A stretch of DNA of 33,318 nt from Lachnospiraceae bacterium (lineage in GTDB: Bacteria; Bacillota; Clostridia; Lachnospirales; Lachnospiraceae). The notes below the pieces were generated by a model. That model searched no databases and was not told the origin of the DNA. It saw nothing but the letters and a program-made list of their open reading frames with translations. Position numbers and translations under genes: made by a program. Numbering within the stretch: the stretch's first letter is position 1; each line of letters begins with the position of its first letter. Positions 5,950 through 22,303 of this stretch are shown in pieces. Location of the stretch: positions 1-33,318 of the forward strand of contig JAETTM010000048.1 of the NCBI GenBank assembly GCA_021769135.1. The letters are read 5' to 3'.

Positions 5950-5974
5950 GCGCAAAAAACTGCGCAGAAATGGG
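5950..5974 (+). promoter_or_regulatory. Hairpin-SD leader element, copy a
   Basis: GCGC, an 8-nt A-rich loop and GCGC are followed by AGAAATGGG. The same layout precedes other start codons in this window (7823, 13146 minus, 20362, 21941, 22272, and possibly 11413). Here the ATG at the usual spacing is 5982, which opens only a 12-codon frame (5982-6020) overlapping the HAD remnant, so the element appears to have lost its original gene. Confidence 0.5.
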
Positions 5975-6007
5975 ATGAAATATGAAAAGCGGCAATAGGA
6001 GAATATT

Positions 6008-6292
6008 ATGGCTGGAGTGATTTTTGATTTTAACGGAACTATGTTTGACGATTCATCGAAGCAAAGGCAGGTATGGCTTGCTTATGCGGAAGAGTCTTTT
6101 CACAGGACGATATCGGAGGAAGGCTATGTTCGTTTCACCGAAGATACCATACGCCTTTTGGACAGGCTGAAGCGGAAAGGAATCCCGTTAGCCATCGCAA
6201 CGGCATCGCCGAAATCCAATGTGGACTGGTATTGGGAAAGGTTTTGCCTGGAAAAGTGGTTTGAGATGGACAACATCGATCGGCAGTTTTGA
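6008..6292 (+). pseudogene. HAD-superfamily phosphatase remnant (beta-phosphoglucomutase-like)
   Basis: The 94 codons start with the HAD motif I strand VIFDFNGTMFDD (4-15) and contain the motif II region IPLAIATASPKSNVDWYWERF (59 onward, threonine/serine of TAS). Between them the cap domain, normally over 60 residues, is missing: the frame jumps from the first helix (about residue 37) to the helix preceding motif II. The frame ends after FEMDNIDRQF, where a full enzyme would continue to the motif III lysine and motif IV acidic pair. Motif I reads DFNGT, with Asn in place of the second Asp. AGGAGA precedes ATG 6008, so it may still be translated. Judged a deletion remnant rather than a short functional enzyme. 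Confidence 0.75.
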
Positions 6293-6370
6293 TGAAGTGG
6301 AAGATTCCCTTTTGGAGTCTGGGCCATGTTAACCGGACGGGAACGAACATATCGTAAAGCGAGGGTACAA

Positions 6371-7600
6371 ATGACAGAAATGAGGACAAAAATGACAACA
6401 AGGTTTTCTATAATTGAAATTTTCTTTTGGATGGCACTGGGCGATGTGATAGGGTTTGTCAGCATTTTTTTGCTTGAATGCGGCTTTAATAATGCCCAGA
6501 TAGGGATAATTGTGGCTTTGGCATGCGGGATTTCTGTAATTTTGCAGCCTATAGTAGCCAGCTATGCCGACATGCCCCAGAGCTTGTCTCTAAAAACGAT
6601 TATCCTTATACTGACCGGGCTGCAGATTGTAATCAGCCCTTTTTTGACGGTTCTGTACCAGAAGAACTTTTGGGCAACGGGGATTTTGTACTGTATATTA
6701 ATTGTGGGAATACATACGCTGAACCCGTTGATAAATGCATTGGGAACAGAGTGCATCAATCAGGGGAAACAGCTGAATTTTGGTGTGGCGAGGGGAATCG
6801 GTTCCGGAGGATATGCCGTTTTATGCTACATATTGGGTATTGTTCTGGCAAGGACCCAGGCCAGTATACAACCATTAACCGCATGCCTTATTTTCATCGG
6901 ATTGGCAATCAGCGTGATGTGTTTCCCCTTTGAAAAGAGGAAGGAAACGGAAGAGACAACCGAAGGAAAAGAGGCAGGCGGGGGCGGGAATGACCGGAAA
7001 GCCCGCAATACCCCATGGGAATTTTTTTCCAGGTATAAAAAGTTTGGAGTTGTTTTAATCGGCTGTGTCCTGCTGTATAGTTCCCACATGATGGTGGGCG
7101 GTTTTGGATTTCAGATTGTGGTCAGCAAGGGGGGAGGGAGCGAGGAAGCAGGAATTGTCATGGCTATAGCAGCCCTGGCGGAGCTGCCGGTGCTCTTTGT
7201 ATTTGCTTATATGCTGAAAATTGCCCGGTGCGATATATGGGTTCGGATTTCGGCCATAGCTTTTATGGTGAAGGCATTGCTTACTTTTTGGGCAACCAAT
7301 ATGACCTTTTATTATTGCGTTCAGGCTTTACAGCTTCTGGGGTGGGGCCTGTTCACCGTAGCGTCCGTATATTACGTAAATGAAGTGATAGAGAAAAGGG
7401 ATGCCATTAAAGGGCAGGCCTATATGACGGCGGCTTATTCCCTTGGCTGTATTATAGGGGCAGCAGCAGGGGGGAAACTGATAGACGCCAAAGGTGTGGA
7501 TACCATGCTGCTTTGGGCAACGGCAGCTTCGCTGGTGGGGATGGTTATCCTCCTGTTTGCCGCTGGCAGTGCAGCGAAGGAACATGGCTATAGCGTCTGA
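6371..7600 (+). CDS. MFS transporter, oligosaccharide/nucleoside:H+ symporter-like
   Basis: A 409-residue membrane protein with about 12 hydrophobic segments in two blocks of six, split by a charged cytoplasmic loop (roughly residues 190-220, rich in Glu, Lys and Gly). The N-terminus RFSIIEIFFWMALGDVIGF and the GFNNAQIGIIVAL turn resemble the MFS_1-like/LacY-type branch that imports sugars or nucleosides with protons; the substrate cannot be read. The start at 6371 is preferred because GAGGG lies 5 nt upstream; ATG 6326 and 6383 are in frame but less well placed. It follows the HAD remnant closely and may share the 5893 promoter. The stop is followed after 2 nt by a palindromic repeat. Confidence 0.8.
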   Translation: MTEMRTKMTTRFSIIEIFFWMALGDVIGFVSIFLLECGFNNAQIGIIVALACGISVILQPIVASYADMPQSLSLKTIILILTGLQIVISPFLTVLYQKNFWATGILYCILIVGIHTLNPLINALGTECINQGKQLNFGVARGIGSGGYAVLCYILGIVLARTQASIQPLTACLIFIGLAISVMCFPFEKRKETEETTEGKEAGGGGNDRKARNTPWEFFSRYKKFGVVLIGCVLLYSSHMMVGGFGFQIVVSKGGGSEEAGIVMAIAALAELPVLFVFAYMLKIARCDIWVRISAIAFMVKALLTFWATNMTFYYCVQALQLLGWGLFTVASVYYVNEVIEKRDAIKGQAYMTAAYSLGCIIGAAAGGKLIDAKGVDTMLLWATAASLVGMVILLFAAGSAAKEHGYSV

Positions 7601-7602
7601 TT

Positions 7603-7640
7603 TCAGCAACAGGGCAGTCGCGAGGCTGAACTGTTACTGA
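7603..7640 (+). repeat. GNRA-capped palindromic repeat, copy A
   Basis: Outer arms TCAGCAACAG and CTGTTACTGA enclose an inner stem CAGTC/GGCTG capped by GCGA, with GG opposite AA between the two stems. The same fold recurs at 13333-13365 (minus) and 24195-24230. It lies directly after the MFS stop and has no U-tract, so it is not a classical terminator. Confidence 0.7.
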
Positions 7641-7660
7641 TTTCCGCGCAGCTGATTGAG

Positions 7661-7885
7661 ATGCTATTGCAGGAGGCAGGAAAAGCTGTTATCATTAGGA
7701 AGGATGACATAAGGGTTATGAATGCCTATATAAACAGGGACCATGGGCAATCTGTAGTTTTTCTGATACGGAAAAATCCGTCGAAGACAGAGCCGGAACT
7801 GTTTTACTATAGTTTTGATTGGGCGCTAAAGCGGCGCGGAAATGGAGTGAAAAATGTCAATAAAAAGAGTAAGGGCATATTTTAA
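7661..7885 (+). CDS. Uncertain small hypothetical ORF
   Basis: A 74-codon frame, open back to the MFS stop codon, overlapping the start of the ybaK gene by 32 bp. Residues such as AVIIRKDDIRVMNAYINRDH look protein-like, but no family is recognised. No clear ribosome site precedes ATG 7661; ATG 7718 after AAGGG is an alternative start. It may be the tail of a lost gene or non-coding. Confidence 0.25.
   Translation: MLLQEAGKAVIIRKDDIRVMNAYINRDHGQSVVFLIRKNPSKTEPELFYYSFDWALKRRGNGVKNVNKKSKGIF
7823..7847 (+). promoter_or_regulatory. Hairpin-SD leader element, copy b (ybaK)
   Basis: GCGC, a 7-nt loop and GCGC are followed by GGAAATGGAG, which supplies the Shine-Dalgarno sequence 6 nt before ATG 7854. 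The arrangement matches the other leader copies. Confidence 0.5.
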
Positions 7886-8315
7886 AGAATATGGAATGGA
7901 GAGCAGAATACTGGAATTCGATGTATCCAGCGCCACGGTGGAACTGGCTGCCGCCGCGCTGCACTGCGAGCCGGAGAGGATAGCGAAGACGCTTTCTTTT
8001 ATGGTGGACGGCCACGGGATACTGGTGGTGGCCGCAGGGGATGCCCGGATTGACAACCACAAATATAAGGAGCAGTTCCATACGAAGGCAAAGATGCTTT
8101 TCAAGGAGGAAGCGGAAACTTTGATTGGTCATGCGGTAGGCGGGGTATGCCCTTTTGCTGTTAATGAAGGCGTGGATGTGTATCTGGATGTATCGCTGAA
8201 ACGGTTTGAAACGGTATTTCCGGCCTGTGGGAGCTCTAACAGCGCCATTGAACTGACAATTCCGGAAATGGAGAAGTATTCCAAGCCTGTGGGGTGGGTG
8301 GACGTGTGCAAGTAG
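7854..8315 (+). CDS. YbaK/EbsC-family aminoacyl-tRNA deacylase-like protein
   Basis: A 153-residue single-domain protein of normal family length. It carries the family landmarks: the substrate-pocket region CEPERIAKTLSFMVDGHGILVVAAGDARID (about 38-68, with the conserved KTL lysine), GHAVGGVCPFAV (92-103), the usual glycine-rich GG-x-P turn, and VFPACGSSNSAIELT (122-136). Members hydrolyse misacylated tRNAs such as Cys- or Ala-tRNA(Pro) in the cytosol. GGAG lies 7 nt before the start. The gene stands alone; the 88-bp repeat follows 55 bp downstream. Confidence 0.9.
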   Translation: MSIKRVRAYFKEYGMESRILEFDVSSATVELAAAALHCEPERIAKTLSFMVDGHGILVVAAGDARIDNHKYKEQFHTKAKMLFKEEAETLIGHAVGGVCPFAVNEGVDVYLDVSLKRFETVFPACGSSNSAIELTIPEMEKYSKPVGWVDVCK

Positions 8316-8370
8316 CAAGGTTTTTGGCGTTGAGATTGCCGGAACGATAGACAAATGTGGGAGGGCTTCT

Positions 8371-8458
8371 ATTTGGCGAATGCCGCGAGGGTCAATACCC
8401 CGCTGCTCTGCAGCGCTGCAAATTTGATGCCCCGTTGCTTGCAGCGGGGTTGTTGACT
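8371..8458 (+). repeat. 88-bp structured repeat, copy 2
   Basis: Base-for-base identical to 26-113, with unrelated flanks on both sides. It ends 10 bp before the truncated PD-(D/E)XK frame, so insertion or recombination here may have removed the 5' part of that gene. Confidence 0.85.
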
Positions 8459-8468
8459 TAAAGAATCC

Positions 8469-8918
8469 GTGGGGAAAGACGGGGAGGCCTTGGAAGGCTT
8501 CTGTAATGCTTTGCAAAATGGAGATGCGGAAGGGGTAGAGAAGTATTTTACAGAATATTTGAAAAGAACTATCAGTATCCGGGATACGTATATAAAAAAA
8601 GAACGAAAGGAAAATTTCTACCATGGCATCCTATTGGGTATCTTAGGGTTTAAAGAACGATGGGGAGTGTCTTCCAACCGGGAATCAGGGGAAGGATACA
8701 GGGATATTCTGATAGAAACGGATGACATGGAGACGGGAATTGTGCTGGAAATAAAGTATGCCCAGGAGGGCAATCTGGAAGCAGGATGTAAGGAGGCGCT
8801 GGAGCAGATAGAGAAGAGAAATTATGAAGAGGCTTTGCGGGATGAGGGGATAGAGAGAATTTTAAAGTGTGGGATTGCGTGCTTTAAGAAGCGTTGCAAG
8901 GTGATGTTTTCGGATTAG
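8469..8918 (+). pseudogene. C-terminal fragment of AAA-ATPase/PD-(D/E)XK nuclease protein
   Basis: The 149 codons match the C-terminal end of the common clostridial proteins that pair an N-terminal AAA-ATPase-like domain with a PD-(D/E)XK nuclease-like domain, usually over 500 residues in all. The recognisable parts are FYHGILLGILG (about 50-60), SNRESGEGYRDILIET (68-83, first catalytic Asp), GIVLEIKYA (E-x-K, about 89-97) and the closing CGIACFKKRCKV. The ATPase domain and the front of the nuclease domain are missing. The 5' end is an unconvincing GTG just after the 88-bp repeat, with no ribosome site. The nuclease core could still fold, but this is best called a 5'-truncated remnant. Confidence 0.75.
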
Positions 8919-8960
8919 CGCGCCGGGATGGAACTGCCTACCGCGCCAGGCATCGGCCCA

Positions 8961-8993
8961 TGATGCAATTCTGATGCAATCATAGTTTATAAT
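8961..8993 (+). promoter_or_regulatory. -10 box preceded by tandem 9-bp repeats
   Basis: TGATGCAAT occurs twice with a 2-bp gap (8961-8969 and 8972-8980), one helical turn apart, just upstream of a TATAAT (8988-8993). There is no good -35, so the repeats may be an activator site for the deacetylase gene. The rest of 8919-9116 shows nothing else. Confidence 0.4.
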
Positions 8994-9116
8994 TAACACA
9001 AGGATGGCTGGCGAAGCCTGGCATCCGTTGTTATGCATATACAAAAGCTGTAGATGATGGAAGGGATATGGATTATTGCTATGAGGTGTCAGAATCAGAA
9101 AAGAACAGAAAGAAAA

Positions 9117-10193
9117 ATGAACAAAATAATGAAAAAAGCGGTTATAGCGCTGCCGTTAGCCATGCTTTTGCTTTTTACAGGCTGCAAAGGCTCGGAAGCC
9201 AGGACGGAGAATCATGGCCAGGCAGAAAACAATGCTGATTCCATTGGAATGGAAAATCAAAATGAGCAGGGGAATATGGCCGGGGAAGGGCAGCAGGATG
9301 GACAAAGTGGAGTCAAGCAGCAGCCCATAGATGAGGGGCAGGAACTGCCCGCATCGGATAATGATTCCGGGGAAGGGCAGCAGGAAGAAAATCAAGGGGA
9401 AGACGGGGGGCAGGACAAGGAACTGGACAGCGAAGACGCCGGCCTGGACGGCGGAGCGGCTGACGAAAAGAAAAGCAGGCCCGAGGGCTGGGAACTGGAA
9501 TTCGCCTCGGAGGACTGGGGGCTGTCCTTCGGCGAGCCGGGCACACAGCCGGTGGGCAATGCTTCTGCGGAGGATTTGGCCTGGTATGACGCTTATTTTG
9601 TGGGGAACGATGAGGAAAAAGTAATTTACCTGACCTTCGACTGCGGCTACGAGAACGGCAATACGGAGCCTATTTTGGATGCCCTGAAAAAGCATAACGC
9701 GAAAGGCACATTTTTCGTGGTAGGCCATTTCCTGGAAACGGCCCCGGATTTGGTAAAGCGTATGGCGGAGGAAGGACATGCGGTGGGAAACCATACCTAT
9801 CGCCATCTGGATATGCCTACCATATCCGATATGGAGGATTTCCGGAAGGAAATGGATGGTGTGGCCGACTTGTTCCGGGAGATTACCGGCAAGGAACTTT
9901 CGCCCTATTACCGCCCGCCTCAGGGGAAATGCAATACGGCTAACCTGGAAAAGGCGCAGGAACTGGGATATTGCACGATTTTCTGGAGCCTGGCCTATGT
10001 GGACTGGGATACGGACAACCAGCCAAGCCACGAAGAAGCCTTTAGTAAGCTGACCTCCAGGGTGCATCCTGGAGCCATCGTACTGCTGCACAACACTTCC
10101 CGCACCAACGGGGAGATTCTGGACGAGCTCCTTACTAAATGGGAAGGGATGGGATACAGCTTCAGGCCACTGTCGGAATTGACGGGGAAATAG
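9117..10193 (+). CDS. Lipoprotein polysaccharide deacetylase, PdaA-like
   Basis: A 358-residue lipoprotein. Residues 1-23 are a type II signal peptide (lysines, then ALPLAMLLLFTGC, lipobox Cys 23). Residues 24 to about 145 are an acidic, Gln/Glu/Gly-rich linker. The NodB domain follows: LTFDCGYEN (172-180, Asp 175 catalytic), HTYRH (226-230, metal ligands), YYRPPQGK (264-271) and IVLLHN near the C-terminus. TFDCGYEN, together with the FWSLAYVDWD stretch, resembles Bacillus PdaA, which deacetylates N-acetylmuramic acid on the way to muramic delta-lactam in spore cortex. Here it would act outside, anchored to the membrane. The start at 9117 is chosen because it gives a normal signal peptide; the upstream ribosome site is weak, and the frame is open to 9054. 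Confidence 0.85.
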   Translation: MNKIMKKAVIALPLAMLLLFTGCKGSEARTENHGQAENNADSIGMENQNEQGNMAGEGQQDGQSGVKQQPIDEGQELPASDNDSGEGQQEENQGEDGGQDKELDSEDAGLDGGAADEKKSRPEGWELEFASEDWGLSFGEPGTQPVGNASAEDLAWYDAYFVGNDEEKVIYLTFDCGYENGNTEPILDALKKHNAKGTFFVVGHFLETAPDLVKRMAEEGHAVGNHTYRHLDMPTISDMEDFRKEMDGVADLFREITGKELSPYYRPPQGKCNTANLEKAQELGYCTIFWSLAYVDWDTDNQPSHEEAFSKLTSRVHPGAIVLLHNTSRTNGEILDELLTKWEGMGYSFRPLSELTGK

Positions 10194-10227
10194 AATGGGC
10201 TGCAGGCATTTGGCTTTTTGGAATTGT

Positions 10228-10258
10228 TTGAGAAAATATAGAAAATTTGTGCTATGAT
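10228..10258 (+). promoter_or_regulatory. Promoter of the DUF3829-like lipoprotein gene
   Basis: TTGAGA (10228-10233), a 19-bp spacer and an extended -10 TGCTATGAT (-10 hexamer 10253-10258), 40 bp before ATG 10299. Confidence 0.45.
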
Positions 10259-10298
10259 AGATTAATATAAGAAATGGATATTAAGGAGGATAAGGAAA

Positions 10299-11396
10299 AT
10301 GATGAAGAAAGCTATGTTGGGAAAGCTGTCTGCCGTTCTGGCCCTTTCGATGGTATTGGCAGGCTGCGGGCAAAGCGGAGGAAGCGCCCAGACAGAAAGA
10401 GGAACATCGGGAACGATGAAAGAAGAGGGTATCAGGAAGTCGGCCGATGATTCGGATGAAGATGCGAATACGGCCGAAGAAGAGGCGGATGCCGGTGGAA
10501 CGGACGAATCGGCCGATATGGAAACGGACATTACCCCGGAGCAAATGGATTTGATTAAATATAATTACTATGTGGATTTGAACAATGAAATCGTGGAAGT
10601 GTTTGACGATATCGACAGTTATTACCAGGTGGTGGATTATGCCGAAGAATTCTCACTGCTGCCGGATACCGGGCTTACTTATGGATATAGTATATACAGC
10701 CTGAACACGGATTTAATTGATGATTGCGTGATGTTAGCTGATATGGAGCCGGCCTACGAGGGGATGGATGACCTTGTAAAAGAGATGGAAGAGCCGCTGC
10801 GGGATTTAATGACGACATTTTCCGATATTAGCGGAAGCTATACATATGCGGATAACCAATATGCGGAAGCGAAGGAATACCATGCAATCATTTACGGTGC
10901 GGCGGAGGAATTTGCCCCGCTTGGATACGAATTTATGGATGCCATTGCCGTGGTAGGCGCGGAAAGGGCAGCCGCAGAGGAAGAGCAGATGAAAGCGGAT
11001 GGGGAACTGATTCGTTATAATGCCAGCCGCGGGATTAGTATCGGCCAGCAAGTTTTAAATGAGATTTACAGCCAGGGGATTACGGATGAAAATATTACCG
11101 AGATGGACCTTACGGAAATCCGCAAGCTGTACGATGAACTTGTGCAGGTGGTTGCCGATTATGATGCGGCAACGGCGGATAATGACCAGTTGGTAAAAGA
11201 ATCGCTCAGCAATTCCAGCCCTTTTGATGGATTGTACAACGCGTTGATTCAGGCCCTGGAATGGATGATAAAGCAGGTGGAGAGCGGGCAGCCCCTGGAT
11301 TTGAGCGGCTCCGGCGCGCCCCTTGGCTCCATAGGGCATTTTTCGGAAACTTTGGGGAAATGTATTGACAGGTACAATTCGGTCTTCGTAGGATGA
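10299..11396 (+). CDS. DUF3829-like lipoprotein of unknown function
   Basis: A 365-residue predicted lipoprotein: lysines, then LSAVLALSMVLAGC (lipobox Cys 23). An acidic, low-complexity Ser/Glu/Asp linker runs to about residue 80. The remainder is mostly helical and begins KYNYYVDLNNEIVEVFDDIDSYY, which resembles the YN-x-x-V-x-x-x-N opening of the DUF3829 helical repeats; later segments repeat the pattern (ELIRYNASRGISIGQQVLNEIY; KLYDELVQVVADYDAA). No catalytic motif is visible. AAGGAGG lies 9 nt before the start. The thymidylate kinase gene follows 46 bp later in the same direction. The domain call is tentative; export and lipidation are well supported. Confidence 0.75.
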   Translation: MMKKAMLGKLSAVLALSMVLAGCGQSGGSAQTERGTSGTMKEEGIRKSADDSDEDANTAEEEADAGGTDESADMETDITPEQMDLIKYNYYVDLNNEIVEVFDDIDSYYQVVDYAEEFSLLPDTGLTYGYSIYSLNTDLIDDCVMLADMEPAYEGMDDLVKEMEEPLRDLMTTFSDISGSYTYADNQYAEAKEYHAIIYGAAEEFAPLGYEFMDAIAVVGAERAAAEEEQMKADGELIRYNASRGISIGQQVLNEIYSQGITDENITEMDLTEIRKLYDELVQVVADYDAATADNDQLVKESLSNSSPFDGLYNALIQALEWMIKQVESGQPLDLSGSGAPLGSIGHFSETLGKCIDRYNSVFVG

Positions 11397-11412
11397 CAGC
11401 CGGATAAACAGG

Positions 11413-11437
11413 CTGCAAAAGCAGTGCAGGAATGGAG
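11413..11437 (+). promoter_or_regulatory. Possible hairpin-SD leader element, copy g (tmk)
   Basis: CTGC-AAAA-GCAG followed by TGCA and GGAATGGAG, 5 nt before ATG 11443. It is a looser match to the leader family than the others. Confidence 0.35.
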
Positions 11438-11442
11438 AAAAT

Positions 11443-12105: not shown

Positions 12106-12153
12106 GATTCATGGAACCTTTTTATGCCAAAGGCAGGGCGAAAGATGTACAGC

Positions 12154-12180: not shown

Positions 12181-13138
12181 GATTGCGATAGGCGCATGGG
12201 GTCATGTGGTAATAATCCTTGAAAATCCGGTGAAAATAACTGGTATTGTCGTACCCGGCCAAAGCGATGATATCTTCAACGGGAAGCGCGGTGGTGGAAA
12301 GCAGGAAGGCCGCCTGGTTCAGGCGTTTTATTTGGAGAAGCTGCTTAAAGGTATGGCCGGAATATTTTTTTACGGTTTTGCTGACAGCATAAGCGGGCAT
12401 ATGCAACTGGCAGGAAATTTCCTCCAGCTTTGCTGTGCGGTAATTGGTTTCGATATATTTTAAAACAGTAAAAACAAGATGCTGCCCATATTGGGAAGAG
12501 TCATTCATATTAATCCGGTCCGTATGGTTGAGGAGATGGAGGAACAGAAGGCCCATAGTAGCCTGATTGATATTGCGGCGGTTTGGCTGGCTGTTTAAGA
12601 GCGACCAGATGAGGTTTTCCACCAGGTTTCTGATAGGAAGGATATCAATGGACTGGAAATGTAAATATTCGGTGACATTTTTATCCGGCTTTAACGTGCC
12701 GATAAGAAAATCCCGCAGTATGTTTTCTTCCTCCAGCATCACAAGCACCCGGTCGAAGAATTCCGGCAGGATAATAAAATTAACGGCGATATCCTCCATG
12801 CCCGCCGGGAGGATTTCATGTACGGTATTAGGGTTTAGCAGAAGGATTTCCCCGGTATTCAGGGTGAGGGCGGCGGAGCCGTTGATGATGTGGGTGGTTG
12901 CCCCGCTGCACATATAAATCATTTCTATATAATTATGCTTGTGGGCGGGGAAATGGACGAAGCGGGTGTGCGGGCGGATATCGATGAGTTTCCCCAGGGT
13001 AAGCATTTTGCGGCTGTCCACAATAAAATCAGGCTCATTGGTATACAAATTTTTTTGGACGTTTTTTTCTCCGGAAAGAAGAAGCTTTTCTTCTTCAGAG
13101 ATTTCTTTCAGGTGATTCAGCAGGCTTGATTCTATCAT
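12167..13138 (-). CDS. AraC family regulator, probable activator of the rhamnose operon
   Basis: A 323-residue regulator. The N-terminal cupin domain shows FVHFPAHKHNYIEMIYM (60-76, H-x-H) and GEILLLNPNTVHEI (96-109). The C-terminal AraC domain (about 220-320) has LEEISCQLHMPAYAVSKTVKKYSG as the first helix-turn-helix and DIIALAGYDNTSYFHRIFKDYY as the second, ending MTPCAYR. It is the nearest regulator to rhaB and divergent from it, which is the usual layout for RhaR/RhaS-type activators, but the toxin-antitoxin remnant separates them. Matching 32-bp sequences lie upstream of both this gene and rhaB and are candidate binding sites. GGGGA precedes the start within a hairpin leader. Rhamnose as inducer is inference. 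Confidence 0.85.
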   Translation of the reverse strand: MIESSLLNHLKEISEEEKLLLSGEKNVQKNLYTNEPDFIVDSRKMLTLGKLIDIRPHTRFVHFPAHKHNYIEMIYMCSGATTHIINGSAALTLNTGEILLLNPNTVHEILPAGMEDIAVNFIILPEFFDRVLVMLEEENILRDFLIGTLKPDKNVTEYLHFQSIDILPIRNLVENLIWSLLNSQPNRRNINQATMGLLFLHLLNHTDRINMNDSSQYGQHLVFTVLKYIETNYRTAKLEEISCQLHMPAYAVSKTVKKYSGHTFKQLLQIKRLNQAAFLLSTTALPVEDIIALAGYDNTSYFHRIFKDYYHMTPCAYRNRAGE

Positions 13139-13145
13139 AGTTTTT

Positions 13146-13171
13146 CCCCATTTCTGTGCGGCTTTTTGCGC
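13146..13171 (-). promoter_or_regulatory. Hairpin-SD leader element, copy c (araC)
   Basis: Read on the minus strand: GCGC, an A-rich loop and GCAC, then AGAAATGGGG, ending 7 nt before the start codon at 13138. Confidence 0.55.
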
Positions 13172-13175
13172 ATGT

Positions 13176-13248
13176 CAAGTTTGCGGATGCCGCGCAGACA
13201 CAAACTTGGGATTGAAAATTTCTAATTTTCAATCTTTCTCTCCCCAAG
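13176..13248 (-). promoter_or_regulatory. Structured 5' leader with competing hairpins upstream of araC
   Basis: On the minus strand CTTGGG (13248-13243) can pair with CCCAAG (13210-13205), enclosing an 11-bp hairpin with a 3-nt loop (arms 13234-13224 and 13220-13210). Alternatively CAAGTTTG (13208-13201) can pair with CAAACTTG (13183-13176). The two foldings share CAAG, so they exclude each other. The structure lies between about 40 and 110 nt before the start codon. The 13139-13485 gap also holds a putative AraC site, a palindromic repeat and the toxin promoter. Confidence 0.45.
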
Positions 13249-15660: not shown

Positions 15661-15661
15661 T

Positions 15662-15910: not shown

Positions 15911-15921
15911 GAGGAAACAAA

Positions 15922-17178
15922 ATGACAGTAAAAGAGAGGTATGAATCGGCAAAGGAACAGTATGGAAAGTTAGGTGTGGACACGGATGCGGCATTGGAGA
16001 CTTTGAAAAACATCCCCATTTCCATGCATTGCTGGCAGGGGGATGATGTCATCGGCTTTGACCATGACGGGCCTTTGACCGGGGGGATTCAGACGACGGG
16101 AAATTATCCGGGCAAGGCGAGGACGCCGGAAGAGCTGATGGCCGATATTGAGAAAGCGCTCAGCCTGATTCCCGGCAGGCATAAGGTGAATCTTCACGCC
16201 TGCTACGCTATTTTTGAAAAAGGGGAATATGTGGACAGGGATAAGCTGGAACCAAAACATTTTGCAAAATGGGTGGAATTCGGCAAGAAGAACGGGGTGG
16301 CATTCGATTTTAACCCCACATGCTTCTCCCATCCCATGGCGGAGGACAGCCTGACATTGTCCAGTCCGGACGAAAAAGTACGCAGATTTTGGGTAGAACA
16401 TTGCAAAGCCTGCATTAGGATTTCCGAATATCTGGCAACGGAACAGGGAAGCCCCTGCGCCATGAACATATGGATTCCGGACGGGATGAAAGATGTGCCG
16501 GCAGACCGTCTCGGCCCCAGGGCAAGGTTCAAACAGTCTCTGGATGAAATCCTGGCAATGCCTTACGATAAGGAAAAGGTCCTTGTGTGCCTGGAATCCA
16601 AAGTGTTTGGCATCGGTATGGAGTCCTATACCGTAGGCTCCAGCGAGTTTACTATAAGTTATGCGGCAAAGAACGGCATAATCAGCCTGCTGGACAACGG
16701 GCATTACCATCCTACGGAAGTGGTGTCCGACAAAATTTCTTCCATGCTTTTATTTAACGATAAGATTGCCCTCCATGTAACCAGGGGCGTGCGCTGGGAC
16801 AGCGACCATGTGGTGCTTTTCGATGATGAGACGAAAGAAATAGCCAAGGAAATCGTAAGGAACGATGCCATAGACAGGGTGCTTCTGGCATTGGATTATT
16901 TCGATGCAAGCATTAACCGCATCGCTGCCTGGGTAGTGGGCATGCGCAATATGCAAAAAGCACTGCTTTATGCCCTACTTTCCCCGAATAAGAAGCTGAA
17001 AGCTCTGCAGGACGAAGGCAGATTTACGGAATTGATGATGCAGCAGGAAGAACTGAAAACATATCCTTTCGGCGATGTATGGAACCGGTTCTGCGAAATG
17101 AACGGTGTTCCGGCAGGCGAAAGCTGGTTCGAGGATGTAAAGGAATATGAGGAAGAGGTGCTTTCAAAGAGAAAATAA
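15922..17178 (+). CDS. rhaA: L-rhamnose isomerase
   Basis: A 418-residue TIM-barrel metalloenzyme, matching the family length, that interconverts L-rhamnose and L-rhamnulose using Mn2+. Landmarks are SMHCWQGDDVIGF (34-46), TGGIQTTGNYPG (53-64), KVNLHACYA (88-96), VAFDFNPTCFSHP (126-138), and the metal region LLDNGHYHPTEVVSDKISSML (255-275). AGGAGG lies 7 nt before the start in the final copy of the tandem leader repeat. In the pathway it acts before RhaB and after RhaM. Confidence 0.95.
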   Translation: MTVKERYESAKEQYGKLGVDTDAALETLKNIPISMHCWQGDDVIGFDHDGPLTGGIQTTGNYPGKARTPEELMADIEKALSLIPGRHKVNLHACYAIFEKGEYVDRDKLEPKHFAKWVEFGKKNGVAFDFNPTCFSHPMAEDSLTLSSPDEKVRRFWVEHCKACIRISEYLATEQGSPCAMNIWIPDGMKDVPADRLGPRARFKQSLDEILAMPYDKEKVLVCLESKVFGIGMESYTVGSSEFTISYAAKNGIISLLDNGHYHPTEVVSDKISSMLLFNDKIALHVTRGVRWDSDHVVLFDDETKEIAKEIVRNDAIDRVLLALDYFDASINRIAAWVVGMRNMQKALLYALLSPNKKLKALQDEGRFTELMMQQEELKTYPFGDVWNRFCEMNGVPAGESWFEDVKEYEEEVLSKRK

Positions 17179-17207
17179 TTTCAGTTTGCTTCAGTGATTT
17201 GAAAATA

Positions 17208-17236
17208 TTGACGATTGGAAGCCTATATATTAAAAT
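17208..17236 (+). promoter_or_regulatory. Internal promoter before rhaM-malQ
   Basis: TTGACG (17208-17213), a 17-bp spacer and TAAAAT (17231-17236). It would allow rhaM and malQ expression apart from rhaBA. Confidence 0.5.
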
Positions 17237-17265
17237 AAGTGGTAACAGCTTACCGGGAACATTGG

Positions 17266-17303
17266 CTGTCTGGCGGACCGTGACTGCACGGATTGCCAGA
17301 CAG
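17266..17303 (+). repeat. Two-tier hairpin in the rhaM leader
   Basis: An outer perfect 9-bp stem (CTGTCTGGC / GCCAGACAG) and an inner perfect 5-bp stem (CCGTG / CACGG, loop ACTG) are joined by a 3/3 internal loop. The design resembles the GNRA palindromic repeats here but the sequence differs. No U-tract follows; it lies between the internal promoter and rhaM. Confidence 0.6.
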
Positions 17304-17385
17304 TTTCGTGTGCAAAGAAATGATGTATGGGAAACTGTATACAAAAAACCGGAACATTTATCAGAAAGGATGGAGGCGGCCATTT

Positions 17386-17697
17386 ATGATAAAAACATTT
17401 AAGATGAAGCTTTATCCGGGCATGGAAGCGGAATACGAGAAGAGGCATAACCAGCTTTGGCCGGAGATGATCGACATGATTCATGAACATGGCGGCAAAA
17501 ATTATACCATTGCCCTGGATCCGGAGACCTTGGTTCTTTTCGGATATATTGAGATAGAGGACGAAGAACTGTGGAATAAGGGGGCGGACACGGCGATTAA
17601 CCGCAAGTGGTGGGATTTTATGGCGGACATTATGGAGACAAACCCGGATAACAGCCCGGTATGCCATGATTTGAAGATGCTGTTCCATTTGGATTGA
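17386..17697 (+). CDS. rhaM: L-rhamnose mutarotase
   Basis: A 103-residue protein, the usual size for RhaM, which interconverts the alpha and beta anomers of L-rhamnose ahead of the isomerase. The family pattern is clear: an opening strand then LYPGMEAEYEKRHNQLWPEM (8-27, catalytic His), KNYTIALDPETLVLFGYIEIED (central sheet), NRKWWDFMADIM (the W-W motif) and a C-terminal LKMLFHLD. The start at 17386 has GGAGG 9 nt upstream; the longer frame from 17293 runs through the hairpin and has no such support. malQ follows after 33 bp. Confidence 0.95.
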   Translation: MIKTFKMKLYPGMEAEYEKRHNQLWPEMIDMIHEHGGKNYTIALDPETLVLFGYIEIEDEELWNKGADTAINRKWWDFMADIMETNPDNSPVCHDLKMLFHLD

Positions 17698-17730
17698 CAG
17701 GGAGATTTTTAAAAAAGGAGGTATAAAAAA

Positions 17731-19233
17731 ATGAATAGAGCAGCCGGGATTTTAATGCCTATCACGAGCCTGCCTTCACGCTATGGGATTGGCTGTTTTT
17801 CCCAAAGCGCGTATGATTTTGTGGACTGGCTGAAAGAGGCGGGGCAGACATATTGGCAGATTTTGCCTCTGGGTCCTACCAGTTACGGGGATTCCCCTTA
17901 CCAGTCTTTCTCCACTTTTGCGGGGAATCCTTATTTTATCAGCCTGGAAGCGTTGATAGAAGAAGGGGTTTTGACAAAAAAGGAATGCGACAGGGCGGAT
18001 TTCGGAAATAAGGCGGATGACATTAATTATGAAAAAATATATAGGAAGCGCTATCCCCTTCTAAGGAAAGCTTATGAGCGCAGCAATATAAGCGAGAATG
18101 CGGATTTTCTGCGTTTTGTGGAGGAAAATAAATGGTGGCTGTGGGATTATGCGTTATTTATGGCGGTGAAGGACCGTTTCGGCGGCATCCCATGGACGGA
18201 ATGGGCGGAGGATATCCGCCTGCGCTGGTCAAATGCCATGGATTATTACTGCAGGGAACTTTATTTCGATATCGAGTTCCAGCAATATATGCAGTTTAAG
18301 TTTTTCAGCCAATGGAGGGAATTGAAAGCCTATGCCAACGGAAAAGGAATCCGGATTATCGGGGATATCCCTATTTATGTGGCTATGGACAGCGCCGATG
18401 CATGGGCGCATCCGGAATTGTTCCAGTTGGATGAAAATAATGTTCCTACGGCGGTGGCCGGGTGCCCGCCGGATGGCTTTTCGGCGGATGGGCAGCTTTG
18501 GGGCAATCCCTTGTACCGGTGGGAATATCATAAGAATACGGGCTATGACTGGTGGATTTCCCGTTTGTGGTATTGTTTTCAGCTTTACGATGTGGTGCGC
18601 ATTGACCATTTCCGCGGCTTTGATGAGTATTATTCCATTCCCTATGGGGAAACGACTGCAATCAGCGGGCATTGGGAAAAGGGTCCCGGCCTGGAGCTGT
18701 TCCGTTGTATGGAGCAGCGGCTTGGCTGGCATGAGGTAATCGCGGAGGATTTGGGATATGTGACGGATTCTGTCCGCCAGCTGGTTCGTGACAGCGGTTT
18801 TCCGGGGATGAAAGTGCTTGAGTTCGCTTTTGATGCCAGGGATTCCGGTTCGGCCAATGACTATTTCCCGCATAATTATGCGGAAAACAGTATCGCATAT
18901 ACGGGTACCCATGACAATGAGACGATTGTAGGCTGGTATCAAAGCATTACGGAAGAGGAACGCCTGATGGCGCGCAATTATTTATGCGACCATTATACGC
19001 CGGAAAAATTGCTGTACAAATCTTTTATTTCCCTTGTAATGCGCAGCAATGCCAAAACATGTATTATTCCTATACAGGATTATCTTGGCTATGACAACAG
19101 CTGCCGTATGAACAAACCGTCCACTCTGGGGATTAACTGGCGCTGGAGGCTGAAAAAAGGGGAACTGAGCGAAGAACTGAAAGAAGAGATTTTAGCGGTA
19201 ACGAAGCGGTATGGAAGGATGAACTGGCAGTAG
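17731..19233 (+). CDS. malQ: 4-alpha-glucanotransferase (amylomaltase)
   Basis: A 500-residue GH77 enzyme of normal length that transfers maltooligosaccharide segments between alpha-1,4-glucans in the cytosol. Motifs in order: RAAGILMPITSLPS (3-16), QILPLGPTSYGDSPYQ (43-58), IIGDIPIYVAMDSADAW (209-225), VVRIDHFRGF (288-297, nucleophile D292), VIAEDLG (336-342, acid/base E339) and YTGTHDNETIVGW (390-402, D395). AAGGAGG lies 9 nt before ATG. It ends the rhamnose operon, where starch-type metabolism is not obviously needed. The convergent AraC gene ends 20 bp downstream. Confidence 0.95.
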   Translation: MNRAAGILMPITSLPSRYGIGCFSQSAYDFVDWLKEAGQTYWQILPLGPTSYGDSPYQSFSTFAGNPYFISLEALIEEGVLTKKECDRADFGNKADDINYEKIYRKRYPLLRKAYERSNISENADFLRFVEENKWWLWDYALFMAVKDRFGGIPWTEWAEDIRLRWSNAMDYYCRELYFDIEFQQYMQFKFFSQWRELKAYANGKGIRIIGDIPIYVAMDSADAWAHPELFQLDENNVPTAVAGCPPDGFSADGQLWGNPLYRWEYHKNTGYDWWISRLWYCFQLYDVVRIDHFRGFDEYYSIPYGETTAISGHWEKGPGLELFRCMEQRLGWHEVIAEDLGYVTDSVRQLVRDSGFPGMKVLEFAFDARDSGSANDYFPHNYAENSIAYTGTHDNETIVGWYQSITEEERLMARNYLCDHYTPEKLLYKSFISLVMRSNAKTCIIPIQDYLGYDNSCRMNKPSTLGINWRWRLKKGELSEELKEEILAVTKRYGRMNWQ

Positions 19234-19241
19234 AACGTTTC

Positions 19242-19280
19242 CGCCCCCATTCCTAACCATCCGCTTTATGGGTGGGGGCG
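19242..19280. terminator. Possible bidirectional terminator hairpin
   Basis: CGCCCCCA (19242-19249) and TGGGGGCG (19273-19280) form a perfect 8-bp stem with a 23-nt loop between malQ and the convergent AraC gene, overlapping the latter's 3' end. No clear U-tract is present. Confidence 0.35.
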
Positions 19281-20158
19281 ATGGAAGCGGCGTATTCCGA
19301 AGGGGACATCCCAGCCAGTTTTTTGAACTGCCTGGAAAAATAGTGGATGGAATTATAGCCCAGATAATCCGCAATCTGGGAAAAATTCAGCTGCTTTTGC
19401 AAGATGAGCTGTTTGGCAGCATTGATTTTCATCAAAGAAAAGTAGTCGATAATTCCGCAGCCCGTATAATCCCGAAAAAGCTGCTGCAAAAAGGAACGTC
19501 CAATCAGGTTGTCCTTGCATATCTGGGAAACGGAAAGATGCCCGCGAAGGTGTTCTTCCATATAAGAAATAATCTTATAAAAAAGTTCTTCATCCCCGTG
19601 CCCCACGCTGGAACCGGGCGCCAAGGCAAATATGCCGCTGTCTGCACTGTTGCGGCGTATCAACTGTATGAGAAGCTGCTGCAGATAGAGAAGGATCATC
19701 TGTTCGGAGCCAAAGGGAACGGCAGCATCAAAACGGCGAACCGGCTTTCGGCAGCCGGAATACGCTTGGGAATCAGAAAAGGCGAATCGGGCTTCTTCTA
19801 CAAGATGGCTGATGAGAGCCCGCTCGGGAGGGGCGACTTTCAGATTTTTGCATCGGAAAAAGTCCATGGCGGGGGAGCCGCATTGGAAACCGATGATGCA
19901 AAAACTTGCCGCGGCCGTTCCGCCAGCCTGTATCTTATGGAGTTCTCCAGGCGGATGGAAAAGAATATCATCTTTACATAAGGTATGGGGAAGCTGTCCG
20001 GACATAACGTTCAGTGTTCCTTTATCCACATATATAAATTCCCAGCAATTGTGGGATTCTTCCTGAAAGGAAATGCGGCTGGATAACTCAAAGTGACGGA
20101 AAAAAGCAATTTTATCAATATCCAGTTCCTTTTTCAGAGCAATATCTTCATAGGCCAT
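19253..20158 (-). CDS. AraC family transcriptional regulator
   Basis: A 301-residue regulator with a cupin-like N-terminus (SHNCWEFIYVDKGTLNV, 35-51, and DDILFHPPGELHKI, 63-76) and an AraC C-terminal domain (about 195-292): LSVSQICKDNLIGRSFLQQLFRDYTG is the first helix-turn-helix, FSQIADYLGYNSIHYFSRQFKKL the second, then MSPSEYAAS. AGGAGA precedes the start. It is convergent with malQ and divergent from the nucleotidyltransferase gene. It may regulate either neighbour; the sequence gives no inducer. Confidence 0.85.
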   Translation of the reverse strand: MAYEDIALKKELDIDKIAFFRHFELSSRISFQEESHNCWEFIYVDKGTLNVMSGQLPHTLCKDDILFHPPGELHKIQAGGTAAASFCIIGFQCGSPAMDFFRCKNLKVAPPERALISHLVEEARFAFSDSQAYSGCRKPVRRFDAAVPFGSEQMILLYLQQLLIQLIRRNSADSGIFALAPGSSVGHGDEELFYKIISYMEEHLRGHLSVSQICKDNLIGRSFLQQLFRDYTGCGIIDYFSLMKINAAKQLILQKQLNFSQIADYLGYNSIHYFSRQFKKLAGMSPSEYAASIAPTHKADG

Positions 20159-20214
20159 ATGGAATGTTCTCCTGCGGATGTCATTTTATATGAAAAGGTA
20201 TAATGTTACATATT

Positions 20215-20242
20215 TTGCGCGAGGCATTCAAATTGATATAAT
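20215..20242 (+). promoter_or_regulatory. Promoter of the nucleotidyltransferase gene
   Basis: TTGCGC (20215-20220), a 16-bp spacer and TATAAT (20237-20242), followed by a 150-nt leader that ends in the hairpin-SD element. Confidence 0.5.
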
Positions 20243-20361
20243 AAGAAGTATATATCATACATGCATGAAAAGAAAGCATATATTTCACAGATGTAGGAGA
20301 AGCTTTACATATCCTCCCGCATTGGTTATAATAGGACAAGAGCCGGAATTAAAAAGTTTAA

Positions 20362-20386
20362 GCGCAAAAATCGTGCAGAAATGAGG
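20362..20386 (+). promoter_or_regulatory. Hairpin-SD leader element, copy d
   Basis: GCGC, a 7-nt A-rich loop and GTGC are followed by AGAAATGAGG, which ends 6 nt before ATG 20393. Confidence 0.55.
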
Positions 20387-20392
20387 ATTAAA

Positions 20393-21310
20393 ATGAAAAA
20401 ACCAGTTTTAGTGATTATGGCAGCGGGAATGGGGAGCCGATATGGGGGATTAAAGCAGATTGACCCGGTGGATGAGCAGGGGCATATCATTATGGATTTT
20501 TCCCTGTACGATGCGGTGAAAGCGGGATTTGAAAAAGTTATTTTTGTAATTAAGAAGGAAAATGAAGCGGACTTTAAGGAAGTGATTGGCCAAAGGATTG
20601 CTGGAATAATGCAGACAGAATATGCATTTCAGGAAATTTCGGATATTCCGGAGGGCTTTGCTGTGCCTGAAGGCAGGCAGAAACCGTGGGGAACAGGACA
20701 TGCGGTTCGCAGCTGCAGGGAATTGGTGGATGGGCCGTTTGTAGTAATTAACGCGGACGATTATTATGGGAAGAGCGCCTTTTCCCAGATTTATGACTAT
20801 CTGACCTCTCATAGTGACGGGGAAAAAATGGATTATGCCATGGTGGGGTATGTGCTGGAGAATACATTGACGGAAAACGGCCATGTGGCCAGAGGCGTAT
20901 GCACTACCGATGCTGCGGGACATCTGACAGGGATTACAGAAAGGACGCATATCGAAAGGCGGGGGGAAGATACAGCCTATACGGAGGATGAAGGGAAAAC
21001 CTGGCATACCATACCGGAGGGCAGCGTTGTATCCATGAATCTTTGGGGATTTACGGAAAGCTTTATGAAGGAATTGGAGAAGGGTTTTGTTCCTTTCCTG
21101 GAAAAAAACATAAATGTAAATCCGCTAAAGTGCGAATATTTTCTTCCCAGCGTTGTGAACGGGCTGATAGAAGAGGACAGGGCGCAGGTAACCGTACTGA
21201 AATCCTATGACCGCTGGTATGGGGTAACTTATAAGGAAGATAAGCAGACTGTCATAGATGCTATCAGGAAAATGAAAGAAGACGGACTGTATCCGCAGAA
21301 ACTTTGGTAA
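20393..21310 (+). CDS. Sugar-phosphate-type nucleotidyltransferase
   Basis: A 305-residue single-domain protein of the NTP-transferase fold, making an NDP-activated compound from NTP and a phosphate. It opens KPVLVIMAAGMGSRYGG-LKQ (3-22), the glycine-rich nucleotide loop with its catalytic arginine and the following lysine. KPWGTGHAVRSC (about 97-108) contacts the base, and VVINADDYYG (117-126) supplies the metal-binding Asp pair. The C-terminus ends in an YDRWYGVTYKED-type segment and lacks the left-handed helix of GlmU. Identity of the sugar is not readable. ATG 20381 is in frame but lies inside the leader's SD, so 20393 is chosen. A strong terminator follows, so it is monocistronic. Confidence 0.85.
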   Translation: MKKPVLVIMAAGMGSRYGGLKQIDPVDEQGHIIMDFSLYDAVKAGFEKVIFVIKKENEADFKEVIGQRIAGIMQTEYAFQEISDIPEGFAVPEGRQKPWGTGHAVRSCRELVDGPFVVINADDYYGKSAFSQIYDYLTSHSDGEKMDYAMVGYVLENTLTENGHVARGVCTTDAAGHLTGITERTHIERRGEDTAYTEDEGKTWHTIPEGSVVSMNLWGFTESFMKELEKGFVPFLEKNINVNPLKCEYFLPSVVNGLIEEDRAQVTVLKSYDRWYGVTYKEDKQTVIDAIRKMKEDGLYPQKLW

Positions 21311-21349
21311 ATAGCGGTTGGGATACGTCATGGAAAATCATGGCAATGG

Positions 21350-21385
21350 GCCAGAAATCTAAAAAAAGGTTTCTGGCTTTATTTC
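21350..21385 (+). terminator. Rho-independent terminator after the nucleotidyltransferase gene
   Basis: An 11-bp stem (GCCAGAAATCT / AGGTTTCTGGC, one G-U pair) with a 6-A loop is followed by TTTATTTC. It lies 40 bp after the stop and just before the metal-operon promoter. Confidence 0.8.
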
Positions 21386-21410
21386 TATTATTAATCTATA
21401 AAAAAATATC

Positions 21411-21463
21411 TTGACATTTCCCAAAACAATGATAAAATGAACATATGAACAGTTATTCATATG
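21411..21463 (+). promoter_or_regulatory. Promoter and ArsR/SmtB-type operator of the Zn/Cd operon
   Basis: TTGACA (21411-21416), 16 bp, TAAAAT (21433-21438), then an 8-bp perfect inverted repeat CATATGAA-N6-TTCATATG (21442-21463) at the expected transcription start. The TGAA-N6-TTCA core is typical of ArsR/SmtB operators. Confidence 0.85.
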
Positions 21464-21505
21464 ATGATGCTTTAAAGCGGGCAGCAGGGAGAACAGGAGG
21501 CAGTT

Positions 21506-21877
21506 ATGAGACCGAAGGAAGAGCAGATTGAAAAATGCGAATACATTCATGTGCACGAAGACATTGTCCGAAAGGTGAACGAGCAAATGCCTGAGGAAGA
21601 CAAACTTTATGATTTGGCGGATTTCTTTAAAGTATTTGCGGATTCCACAAGAATCAAAATGCTATATGTCCTTATGTGCGGCGAAATGTGCGTTTGTGAT
21701 TTGGCGCAAATTTTAAATATGACCCAGTCGGCTATTTCCCATCAGCTAAGGACATTGAAACAGATGGATCTGGTGCGGAACCGGAGAGAAGGGAAGACCG
21801 TGTTCTACTCCCTTGCGGACGGCCACATTAAAACCATTTTAAGTCAGGGCCTCGACCATATCGAAGAGGAAGGCTAA
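21506..21877 (+). CDS. ArsR/SmtB-family metal-responsive repressor
   Basis: A 123-residue winged-helix repressor with both classical metal sites. The alpha3N-type site is suggested by C11 with nearby H15 and H17, and by C58, C62 and C64 in CGEMCVCDLA (the CadC-like CxC). The alpha5 site is D105, H107, H118 and E121. The DNA-recognition helix is TQSAISHQLRTLK (73-85). Metal (Zn, Cd or Pb) would release it from the inverted repeat at 21442-21463, derepressing itself, the HMA protein and the ATPase. AGGAGG precedes the start. A CadC/CmtR/SmtB-like role is inferred from the ligands and neighbours. Confidence 0.9.
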   Translation: MRPKEEQIEKCEYIHVHEDIVRKVNEQMPEEDKLYDLADFFKVFADSTRIKMLYVLMCGEMCVCDLAQILNMTQSAISHQLRTLKQMDLVRNRREGKTVFYSLADGHIKTILSQGLDHIEEEG

Positions 21878-21940
21878 GGCCTGCGGGGGTATTGTAGAAC
21901 TGGCGGAATAGAAGCTTTTTGGTAACCTAAACGGATTTTA

Positions 21941-21966
21941 GTGCAGAAATCAGCACGGAAATGGAG
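21941..21966 (+). promoter_or_regulatory. Hairpin-SD leader element, copy e
   Basis: GTGC, an 8-nt loop and GCAC are followed by GGAAATGGAG, 6 nt before ATG 21973. Confidence 0.5.
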
Positions 21967-21972
21967 AAGAAG

Positions 21973-22194
21973 ATGAAAAAAATGTATATTCTTGAGGATT
22001 TGGATTGTGCGCATTGCGCAGCGGAAATCGAAACTGCAGTTGGAAAGCTGGAAGGGGTCCATAGCAGTACGGTGACTTTCATGACCCGCAGGCTGGTAGT
22101 GGAAGTGGACGATGGGAAGGCGGATAAAATAACGAAGGAAATCAAAAAAGTGGTAAAAAAGTTCGAGCCGGATGTGGAGGTCATAGAAAAATAA
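21973..22194 (+). CDS. Heavy-metal-associated (HMA) domain protein
   Basis: A 73-residue stand-alone ferredoxin-like HMA domain. The metal loop is LDCAHCAAEIE (10-20, C12 and C15), in the D-x-C form typical of the N-terminus of Zn/Cd ATPases rather than the G-M-x-C form of copper chaperones. It probably hands Zn/Cd to, or senses metal for, the ATPase encoded 114 bp downstream, which itself lacks an HMA domain. The start at 21973 is chosen because GGAGAAG precedes it; ATG 21961 is part of the leader element. Confidence 0.9.
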   Translation: MKKMYILEDLDCAHCAAEIETAVGKLEGVHSSTVTFMTRRLVVEVDDGKADKITKEIKKVVKKFEPDVEVIEK

Positions 22195-22271
22195 GGCCGG
22201 GGATGGAAACGTGTTATAGAAATGCCGTATGGAAGTGTATATTGCAGTAAAGCATGGAAATACATATATAA

Positions 22272-22303
22272 GCGCGGTATAGAATACGGTGCGGAAACGA
22301 GGG
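22272..22303 (+). promoter_or_regulatory. Hairpin-SD leader element, copy f
   Basis: GCGC, a 13-nt loop and GTGC are followed by GGAAACGAGGG, 5 nt before ATG 22309. A longer loop than the other copies. Confidence 0.4.

Follow-up and report, generated by a model that had tools for sequence, protein, structure and literature searches.

Translational leaders in which an H-type pseudoknot abuts the Shine-Dalgarno sequence (SD) are known from preQ1 riboswitches and T4 gene 32. Among short bacterial repeats, BOX elements in Streptococcus pneumoniae are modular (boxA-boxB-boxC), bounded by terminal inverted repeats, accompanied by target duplications and found in excess between convergent genes, according to the accessible parts of that paper (PMC3049150). 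The TAACTGA direct repeats of marine Beggiatoaceae are, in the portion of their description available to us, tandem 7-mers in regions mostly without an SD, and a translational role was proposed for them (PMC4679880). The repeat considered here comes from a 33,318-nt stretch of Lachnospiraceae DNA (contig JAETTM010000048.1, assembly GCA_021769135.1; hereafter the window), which belongs to a genome of 4.43 Mb on 152 contigs. The initial annotation pointed to a recurrent motif (GYGC, a loop, GYRC and the SD-bearing RGAAATGRRG) before several genes, and all seven places that it named do carry a GYGC-like and a GYRC-like sequence followed by a GAAATG-type SD. This motif forms module C, the 3' end of a larger modular repeat that spans roughly 100–120 nt. 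Judging from sequence comparisons, it is likely that this is a small interspersed Lachnospiraceae repeat, at least recently mobile, that inserts between the SD and the start codon in the orientation of the gene and takes over initiation.

Aligning the sequence upstream of the motif revealed two long shared contexts, and the modules of the full element follow one another as hairpin A, hairpin B, a variable linker and a C arm with its own SD, and then the host ATG. Hairpin A (AAGATTGAAAATTnnnAATTTTCAATC, or as a variant GAGTGAAAGA..TCTTTCACTC) starts with TTG or GTG at start-codon spacing behind the old SD, while hairpin B is CAAGTTTGTG-TCTGCGCGGCATC-CACAAACTTG. The linker is mostly 12–13 or 28 nt (range 7–37 in 80 copies, longer in a few copies), and the C arm, GCCGCGCAGA, runs into AATGRGG, with the host ATG about 6 nt further on. 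In the window's own genome, hairpin B is present in 34 copies with at most three mismatches, 14 of which are letter-identical at unrelated genes, and all 34 are in sense orientation, with a C arm and a start codon downstream (at one of them, L080, the host open reading frame, ORF, has just 29 aa); hairpin B read backwards has no match in this genome. As in miniature inverted-repeat transposable elements (MITEs), the element is short and dispersed in many near-identical copies without a coding gene. No terminal inverted repeat of at least 7 nt joins the element ends in the full copy L072, searched by program (other copies were judged by eye), and the inverted repeats of that length in L072 correspond to hairpins A and B and to the loop/arm pair. 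Copies with module C only are, we infer, older and decayed elements that keep the SD-bearing end, which would still be needed.

Several copies have unusual forms. At L045 (about 2870–3034) and L006 (about 443–574), elements are nested, the second element lying between the SD of the older one and the host start codon. L086 (G000:C30:20684-20716 and upstream) has an extra palindrome, CTAGTACTCCGTACTCA / TGAGTACGGAGTACTAG, inside the hairpin A loop. L298 (G000:C149:26537-26575) represents a different subfamily in the window's own genome, of the CGAGATTTGTG..CACAAACTCG type that was seen in loci of other species, which suggests transfer between species or coexisting subfamilies.

Over the whole genome and on both strands, the full motif (GYGC..GYRC plus RGAAATGRRG) gave 49 matches at 48 distinct sites, two matches overlapping, and the motif read backwards gave none. 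At 47 of the 48 sites, an ATG or GTG that opens an ORF of at least 40 aa lies 3–8 nt downstream, with a spacing of exactly 6 nt in 31; the distance of 5–7 nt to the start codon, which was initially said to be invariable, applies to 43 of the 48. Site listings covered 47 of the 48 sites (L003, with a long loop, was left out), and later sets contained 46 and 44 (L033, L037 and L044 left out). The shorter core, GYRC plus RGAAATGRRG, was counted in a 373-kb set consisting of the window and 17 stretches of 20 kb (340 kb) of the same genome, which were chosen after the list of full-motif sites was known. All 11 of its matches, four of them in the window, lie ahead of a start, compared with 10 of 33 for RGAAATGRRG without GYRC, and five dinucleotide shuffles of the set contained 0, 0, 0, 1 and 0 short-core matches. 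The full motif has four matches in this set, all from the window, and the 17 other stretches hold none. In the loci examined from this genome, GYGCAGAAATGRRG (113 sites genome-wide) lies ahead of a start at 55 of 57 distinct sites, the two exceptions being L029, with a short ORF, and L045, where the sequence is the inner SD of the nested double element. A sequence-structure model of the core (R1) had 150 scored matches in the genome, of which about 110, counted by eye, fell under E 0.001 and five lay in the window; R1 is not an independent test of position, since its columns include the start codon.

Comparison of occupied and empty sites bears on the insertion reading. Of 18 B-bearing sites of the window's own genome, five relatives supplied orthologues of at least 75% identity for 12 (orthologues below this identity were ignored), and 11 of these 12 sets include at least one empty orthologue. 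By the rule of the script, the 40 orthologues at the 12 sites comprise 26 empty, 8 full, 5 C only and 1 B only, and the empty ones mostly have an ordinary SD next to the start codon. Such presence and absence at orthologous sites (11 of 12 sets, and also araC, HMA and nucleotidyltransferase genes), seen between species only, is another feature shared with MITEs. In the closest pair, the occupied site reads GGGAGAGGGGGCGGAAGA[TTGAAAATT...GAAATGGAGTAAAGA]ATG and the empty one GGGAGAGGGGGCAGAGGAATG, which puts the insertion point between the SD and the start codon. In agreement with this, 29 of 45 full copies, drawn from several species, have 5 nt or more of SD-like sequence at start-codon spacing ahead of the first NTG of the element, compared with 13 of 225 control windows. 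Because of the empty orthologues and the SD-like run left upstream, the repeat appears to behave as a MITE-like cassette that replaces the ribosome-binding site (RBS). A mobile cassette inserted at start codons was one of the two possibilities raised by the initial annotation, and it is well supported by the occupied and empty sites, the patchy copy number and the old SD left upstream.

The patchiness is evident at several scales. Related genomes were scanned, and a 14-nt core was present in 81 of the 294 genomes of the order, mostly in one or a few copies but with high-copy islands. In the 16 genomes of the genus, of which four are less than 90% complete, the counts per genome were 0, 0, 0, 1, 1, 2, 4, 10, 12, 22, 45, 46, 49, 113, 118 and 185, with a control count of 0 in all. 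A scan of a genome collection for the C core returned at least 110 stretches, of which 80 titles were listed; these are mostly Lachnospiraceae or member genera, with a few Bacillota, Clostridia, Acetivibrio and Candidatus Caccomorpha, and Lachnospiraceae bacterium 28-4 is one of those with the motif. A start codon lies 2–9 nt downstream in 73 of the 80 stretches examined (of at least 110), at 6 nt in 58; the 73 have an ORF of at least 40 aa or one running off the stretch, including one of 28 aa cut by the stretch end. Pfam scans of host genes covered 74 genes of the window's own genome and 74 of other species from 190 listed (one window gene being added by hand), and found 107 families in the former, the commonest in four genes, and 90 in the latter, the commonest in five. 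Hosts named by Pfam include acetate kinase, dihydroxy-acid dehydratase, glutamine synthetase, ribosome recycling factor and CTP synthase, and thrS and murC were identified by eye from their N-termini.

The other possibility raised initially, a shared translational control element, is supported in part, in so far as a conserved structure with compensatory changes abuts the SD, but that structure is made of hairpin B and a loop–arm pairing and not of the 4-bp GYGC/GYRC stem then proposed. For the latter stem, covariation was not above shuffles (140 of 500 as high), there was no double change in B-bearing copies, and the compensatory changes suggested as a check on it were not seen. In the stem B alignment, both sides change at 7 of 10 pairs, a result that is biased upwards because candidates had to have at least 9 of 10 stem-B pairs; loop–arm pairing was not a selection criterion. 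When copies were chosen by strand similarity only (14 of 20 matches; 94 copies with 41 distinct stems), stem B had 31 double changes at 7 positions, and its pairing exceeded all 5000 re-pairings. The B loop pairs with the 10-nt arm that abuts the new SD in 709 Watson-Crick and 37 G-U of 800 cells (80 of 90 B+C candidates, 10 being excluded for a 5' stem poorly similar to the B consensus), and when the 45 distinct loop/arm combinations were re-paired, the observed score was reached in none of 20000 permutations. The covariation alignment held 54 of 56 short-linker copies (L036 and L157 left out), and one loop–arm position in these 54 sequences has six standard pair types with 24 double changes. 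Kinship among the sequences inflates these counts; nonetheless, the changes recur across species.

The transcript therefore probably forms an H-type pseudoknot directly 5' of the new SD. A feasible geometry would comprise a stem B of about 10 bp, a core of about 7 bp (GCGCGGC/GCCGCGC, limited to 7 bp since the U-A pairs at its edges are weaker), crossing loops of 3 nt and a third loop rich in A. Energy folding without pseudoknots returned B plus the C hairpin for two full copies; for L165 it returned the loop–arm helix. At L190, two neighbouring copies (5328–5391 and 5421–5484) have unusual B loops, TCTAAAAGATATC and TCTGAAAGATATC, whose complementarity to the arm is largely lost.

We propose that the host promoter would transcribe a leader containing the element, in which hairpin A would cover the NTG behind the old SD and so weaken or sequester the old initiation site. 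The B/C pseudoknot directly 5' of the new SD would keep this SD free of upstream pairing, and ribosomes would initiate at the host ATG, so that insertion might swap the RBS without silencing the host gene. The element may in this way alter the translation of unrelated genes. In a broader form, to which we give slightly less than an even chance, the repeat would represent a class of mobile RNA elements specific for the translation start, which enter the gap between SD and start codon, duplicate or supply an SD and install a pseudoknot leader, putting 100 to 200 unrelated genes per genome under one leader.

A number of observations weigh against reading the repeat as a mobile element that inserts at start codons and acts through its RNA. 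The occupied and empty sites were compared between species (76–94% nucleotide identity over the gene starts) and not between strains, and one site scored as 'empty' (L280), where GAAATGGAG occurs but no arm, may instead carry a decayed copy. L069, L075 and L082 share extra left sequence with its own SD, and hence the upstream SD need not always be that of the host. At the HMA gene of G299 (L213), about 30 nt that include a plain SD separate the 3' end of the element from the ATG downstream; this is the one clear exception seen to the start-codon position rule. The junctions are variable, with no anchored repeat of at least 4 nt in 33 of 54 copies, and the summed flank repeats are weaker when anchored (94 of 5000 permutations as high) than when unanchored (0 of 2000). 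No mobilizing gene was found, the counts of PF01797 (Y1 transposase) and PF00078 (reverse transcriptase, RT) not following copy number. Pseudoknot-free folds usually favour B plus the C hairpin. Finally, the ratio of G-U to A-C cells, which bears on selection at the level of RNA or DNA, is 44/15 in stem B of the 94 copies and 11/3 in 32 copies from the window's own genome, but drops to 80/48 at the loosest threshold (124 copies), and for the loop–arm pairing it is 37/30; a value of 41/8 in copies preselected for pairing is inflated. The stem B counts favour selection on the sense RNA, short of proof.

One alternative is that the repeat spreads without a transposase, by recombination or gene conversion guided by short homology between SD-spacer-start sequences. 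An SD-spacer-NTG arrangement is found at both element ends, nested copies occur (L045 and L006), and the right flank in 11 of 54 full copies repeats 6 nt or more, mostly SD-like, that end at the left junction (permutation mean 3.5, never 11 in 5000), one of the 11 being the nested L006. These junction repeats fit either a decaying target duplication or homology-guided entry. However, the end homology is short and absent in most copies, and to place precise copies at unrelated genes the process would have to be efficient, so we regard spread by recombination as rather unlikely.

It is also unlikely, to a somewhat greater degree, that the repeat is an ancestral riboswitch- or thermometer-like leader that was inherited, often lost and kept for the control of a regulon. 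The compensatory changes and the sense orientation at the inspected sites would fit such a leader, as would sites occupied in several species, for example ilvD in the window's own genome, G298, G299 and G296. However, empty genes, most with an ordinary SD, occur in nearly all the orthologous sets, many B copies are letter-identical at unrelated genes, copy number ranges from none to 185 within one genus, and host functions are diverse, all of which speaks against such a leader.

Given hairpins near both ends and no inverted repeat linking the ends, the repeat might instead be a non-autonomous relative of IS200/IS605 or REP/RAYT elements, with subterminal hairpins and single-strand transposition by a Y1 transposase. 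This appears quite improbable, as PF01797 had no match at E 1e-6 in G298 (118 copies), G148, G306 and G307 and was most frequent (9 matches, some of them fragments) in G301, which has no element copies; a Y1 transposase was rejected as the driver because the counts do not track copy number. A group II intron or other RT-driven element was rejected on the same grounds, PF00078 not being found at E 1e-10 in G304 (46 copies), G307 (22) and G306 (10). Spread by phages or plasmids was likewise tried and set aside: a plasmid search with one 100-nt element query had no match at E 0.01, viral contigs (IMG/VR) yielded three matching stretches (L291, L292 and L293), and 16 'Bacteriophage sp.' records from human faeces (MT83xxxx) matched, of which 13 were taken in (L314–L326). 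These records may be bacterial DNA in phage preparations, since the host genes in the four inspected seem bacterial by eye. In L291 and L292, the element precedes a gene that resembles a large serine recombinase and is a possible vehicle between species, and in L293 it precedes a gene read as a cation ATPase, both by eye. Rfam had no match in the window at gathering score, and in 14 element-bearing loci it matched only TwoAYGGAY and SAM, both away from the element.

The repeat could be a leader-peptide or attenuator device if a coding leader opened at the NTG with which hairpin A begins; this NTG lies behind an SD at the distance of a start codon, and the leader ORF does stop within −30 to +15 nt of the host ATG in 17 of the 45 full copies. 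However, 14 leader ORFs stop beyond +15, 5 stop earlier and 9 have no stop in 200 codons, the left-end NTG is in frame with the host ATG in only about one third of the copies (13 of 45), and the one peptide tested, from L006, had no NCBIfam match. As the frame is not conserved, a coding leader peptide was rejected, and a device of this kind is very improbable. The stop-free in-frame leaders (200 codons) are those of L038, L072, L102, L105, L125, L127, L199, L205 and L209, and since the NTG there is in frame without a stop, host proteins predicted by gene callers may run on through the element. A chance coincidence of A/G-rich SD context with GC pairs has practically no probability, for SDs are alike everywhere but the shuffled and reversed controls are at or near zero.

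We now return to the likely mobile repeat as it appears in the window, where a single complete element lies before araC and all other copies are of the C-only kind (Table 1). The motif, whose copy before tmk had already been called looser, is exact at four of seven (7823, 13146 on the minus strand, 20362 and 21941), whereas 5950, 22272 and 11412 deviate; the 5950 copy reads AGAAATGGGA, and the latter two read GGAAACGAGG and AGGAATGGAG, respectively. Directly 5' of the 5950 copy (about 5935–5950) lies a linker-hairpin remnant, CTTAAATGAATTTGAG. This copy does not directly lead the HAD remnant as had been thought: it is followed by a 12-codon ORF that starts from the ATG at 5982, and the HAD ORF begins at 6008 behind its own AGGAG. 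The latter ORF (6008–6292, 94 aa) is weakly similar to beta-phosphoglucomutase-type HAD hydrolases and is apparently a remnant.

Table 1. Copies of the repeat and their modules in the window.
Feature	Position	Strand	Context
Module C	5950..5974	+	Ahead of a 12-codon ORF upstream of the HAD remnant; R1 E 4.1e-9
Short copy, module C only	7823..7847	+	Ahead of ybaK (ATG 7854); exact motif, R1 match
Degenerate C-like copy	11412..11437	+	Ahead of tmk (ATG 11443); outside the 150 R1 matches
Complete element A-B-linker-C with own SD	13139..13236 (98 nt)	-	Before the araC start codon at 13138
Module A hairpin of araC copy, GATTGAAAATT/AATTTTCAATC	13210..13234	-	Includes TTG at start-codon spacing behind the old SD
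Module B hairpin of araC copy	13176..13208	-	Loop 13189-13198 (TCTGCGCGGC) complementary to SD-proximal arm
Module C of araC copy	13146..13171	-	GCGC..GCAC pair of the initial motif plus SD; arm 13153-13162
Short copy	20362..20386	+	Ahead of nucleotidyltransferase (ATG 20393); exact motif, R1 match
Short copy	21941..21966	+	Ahead of HMA protein (ATG 21973); exact motif, R1 match
Degenerate C-like copy, extended hairpin	22272..22302	+	Ahead of Zn/Cd P-type ATPase (ATG 22309); outside the 150 R1 matches

In the araC copy, the old SD region, TTGGGGAGAGAA, lies just beyond 13236, and there is one A-C mismatch between the arm and the B loop; the araC orthologues in G298, G299, G297 and G307 have no element at that position. 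The HMA gene carries a full A-B-C element in G298 and the short copy in the window's own genome. For the nucleotidyltransferase gene, the element is full (A-B-C) in G307, short in the window's own genome and in G298, and degenerate in G299, and 12 of 15 relatives have a plain leader. The ybaK orthologue retains the C module in G298 and has arm and SD without the 5' GYGC in G299, with no element in G307, G297, G148 and G296. The tmk orthologue in G298 has CGCAGAAATGGAG at the corresponding place. Folded alone, two of the six short window copies reached a z-score of −2 or below (5930–6020, −2.00; 22270–22330, −2.57), and the other four fold no better than shuffles.

The element occupies a place where insertions should be damaging, including positions before acetate kinase (Pfam) and before the genes identified by eye as thrS and murC. 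Insertion at start codons is apparently tolerated because the element brings its own RBS. If the proposed behaviour is correct, a selfish sequence can rewrite the translation initiation of many genes, and orthologues with and without the leader would be naturally matched pairs with which to gauge the effect of structure just upstream of an SD. It would also be a warning that gene callers may misplace starts at element loci. We found no description of the element in open PMC papers, a scope that makes this weak evidence of absence, and it looks like an undescribed kind of mobile repeat in some gut bacteria.

Compared with the preQ1 and T4 gene 32 leaders, the repeat is alike in having a pseudoknot, here inferred from sequence, next to the SD, but its hosts have no common function, the element itself has no Rfam match, and its copies proliferate. 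With BOX elements, as far as the available parts of their description go, it shares short and modular form, about 100 copies per genome, predicted folding of the transcript and patchy occurrence in related species, and differs in position, since BOX is in excess between convergent genes whereas all 34 B copies in the window's own genome are sense and lie upstream of start codons next to an SD (PMC3049150). Like MITEs, ERIC and Rickettsia palindromic elements, it is a small hairpin-forming repeat of a kind that alters transcripts or proteins; unlike them, it appears to target the junction of SD and start codon and to replace the RBS, which is described for none of them in the accessible parts of two reviews (PMC10969869, PMC2229807). 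The term 'start codon' is absent from the available text of the MITE review (PMC10969869), the 2007 review (PMC2229807) and a survey of stem-loop families (PMC2267715). The repeat resembles the TAACTGA repeats, in the portion of their description at hand, in being present in many copies, mostly forward and several nt from the starts of functionally unrelated genes, and is set apart from them as a structured cassette with compensatory changes, its own SD, and occupied and empty sites (PMC4679880).

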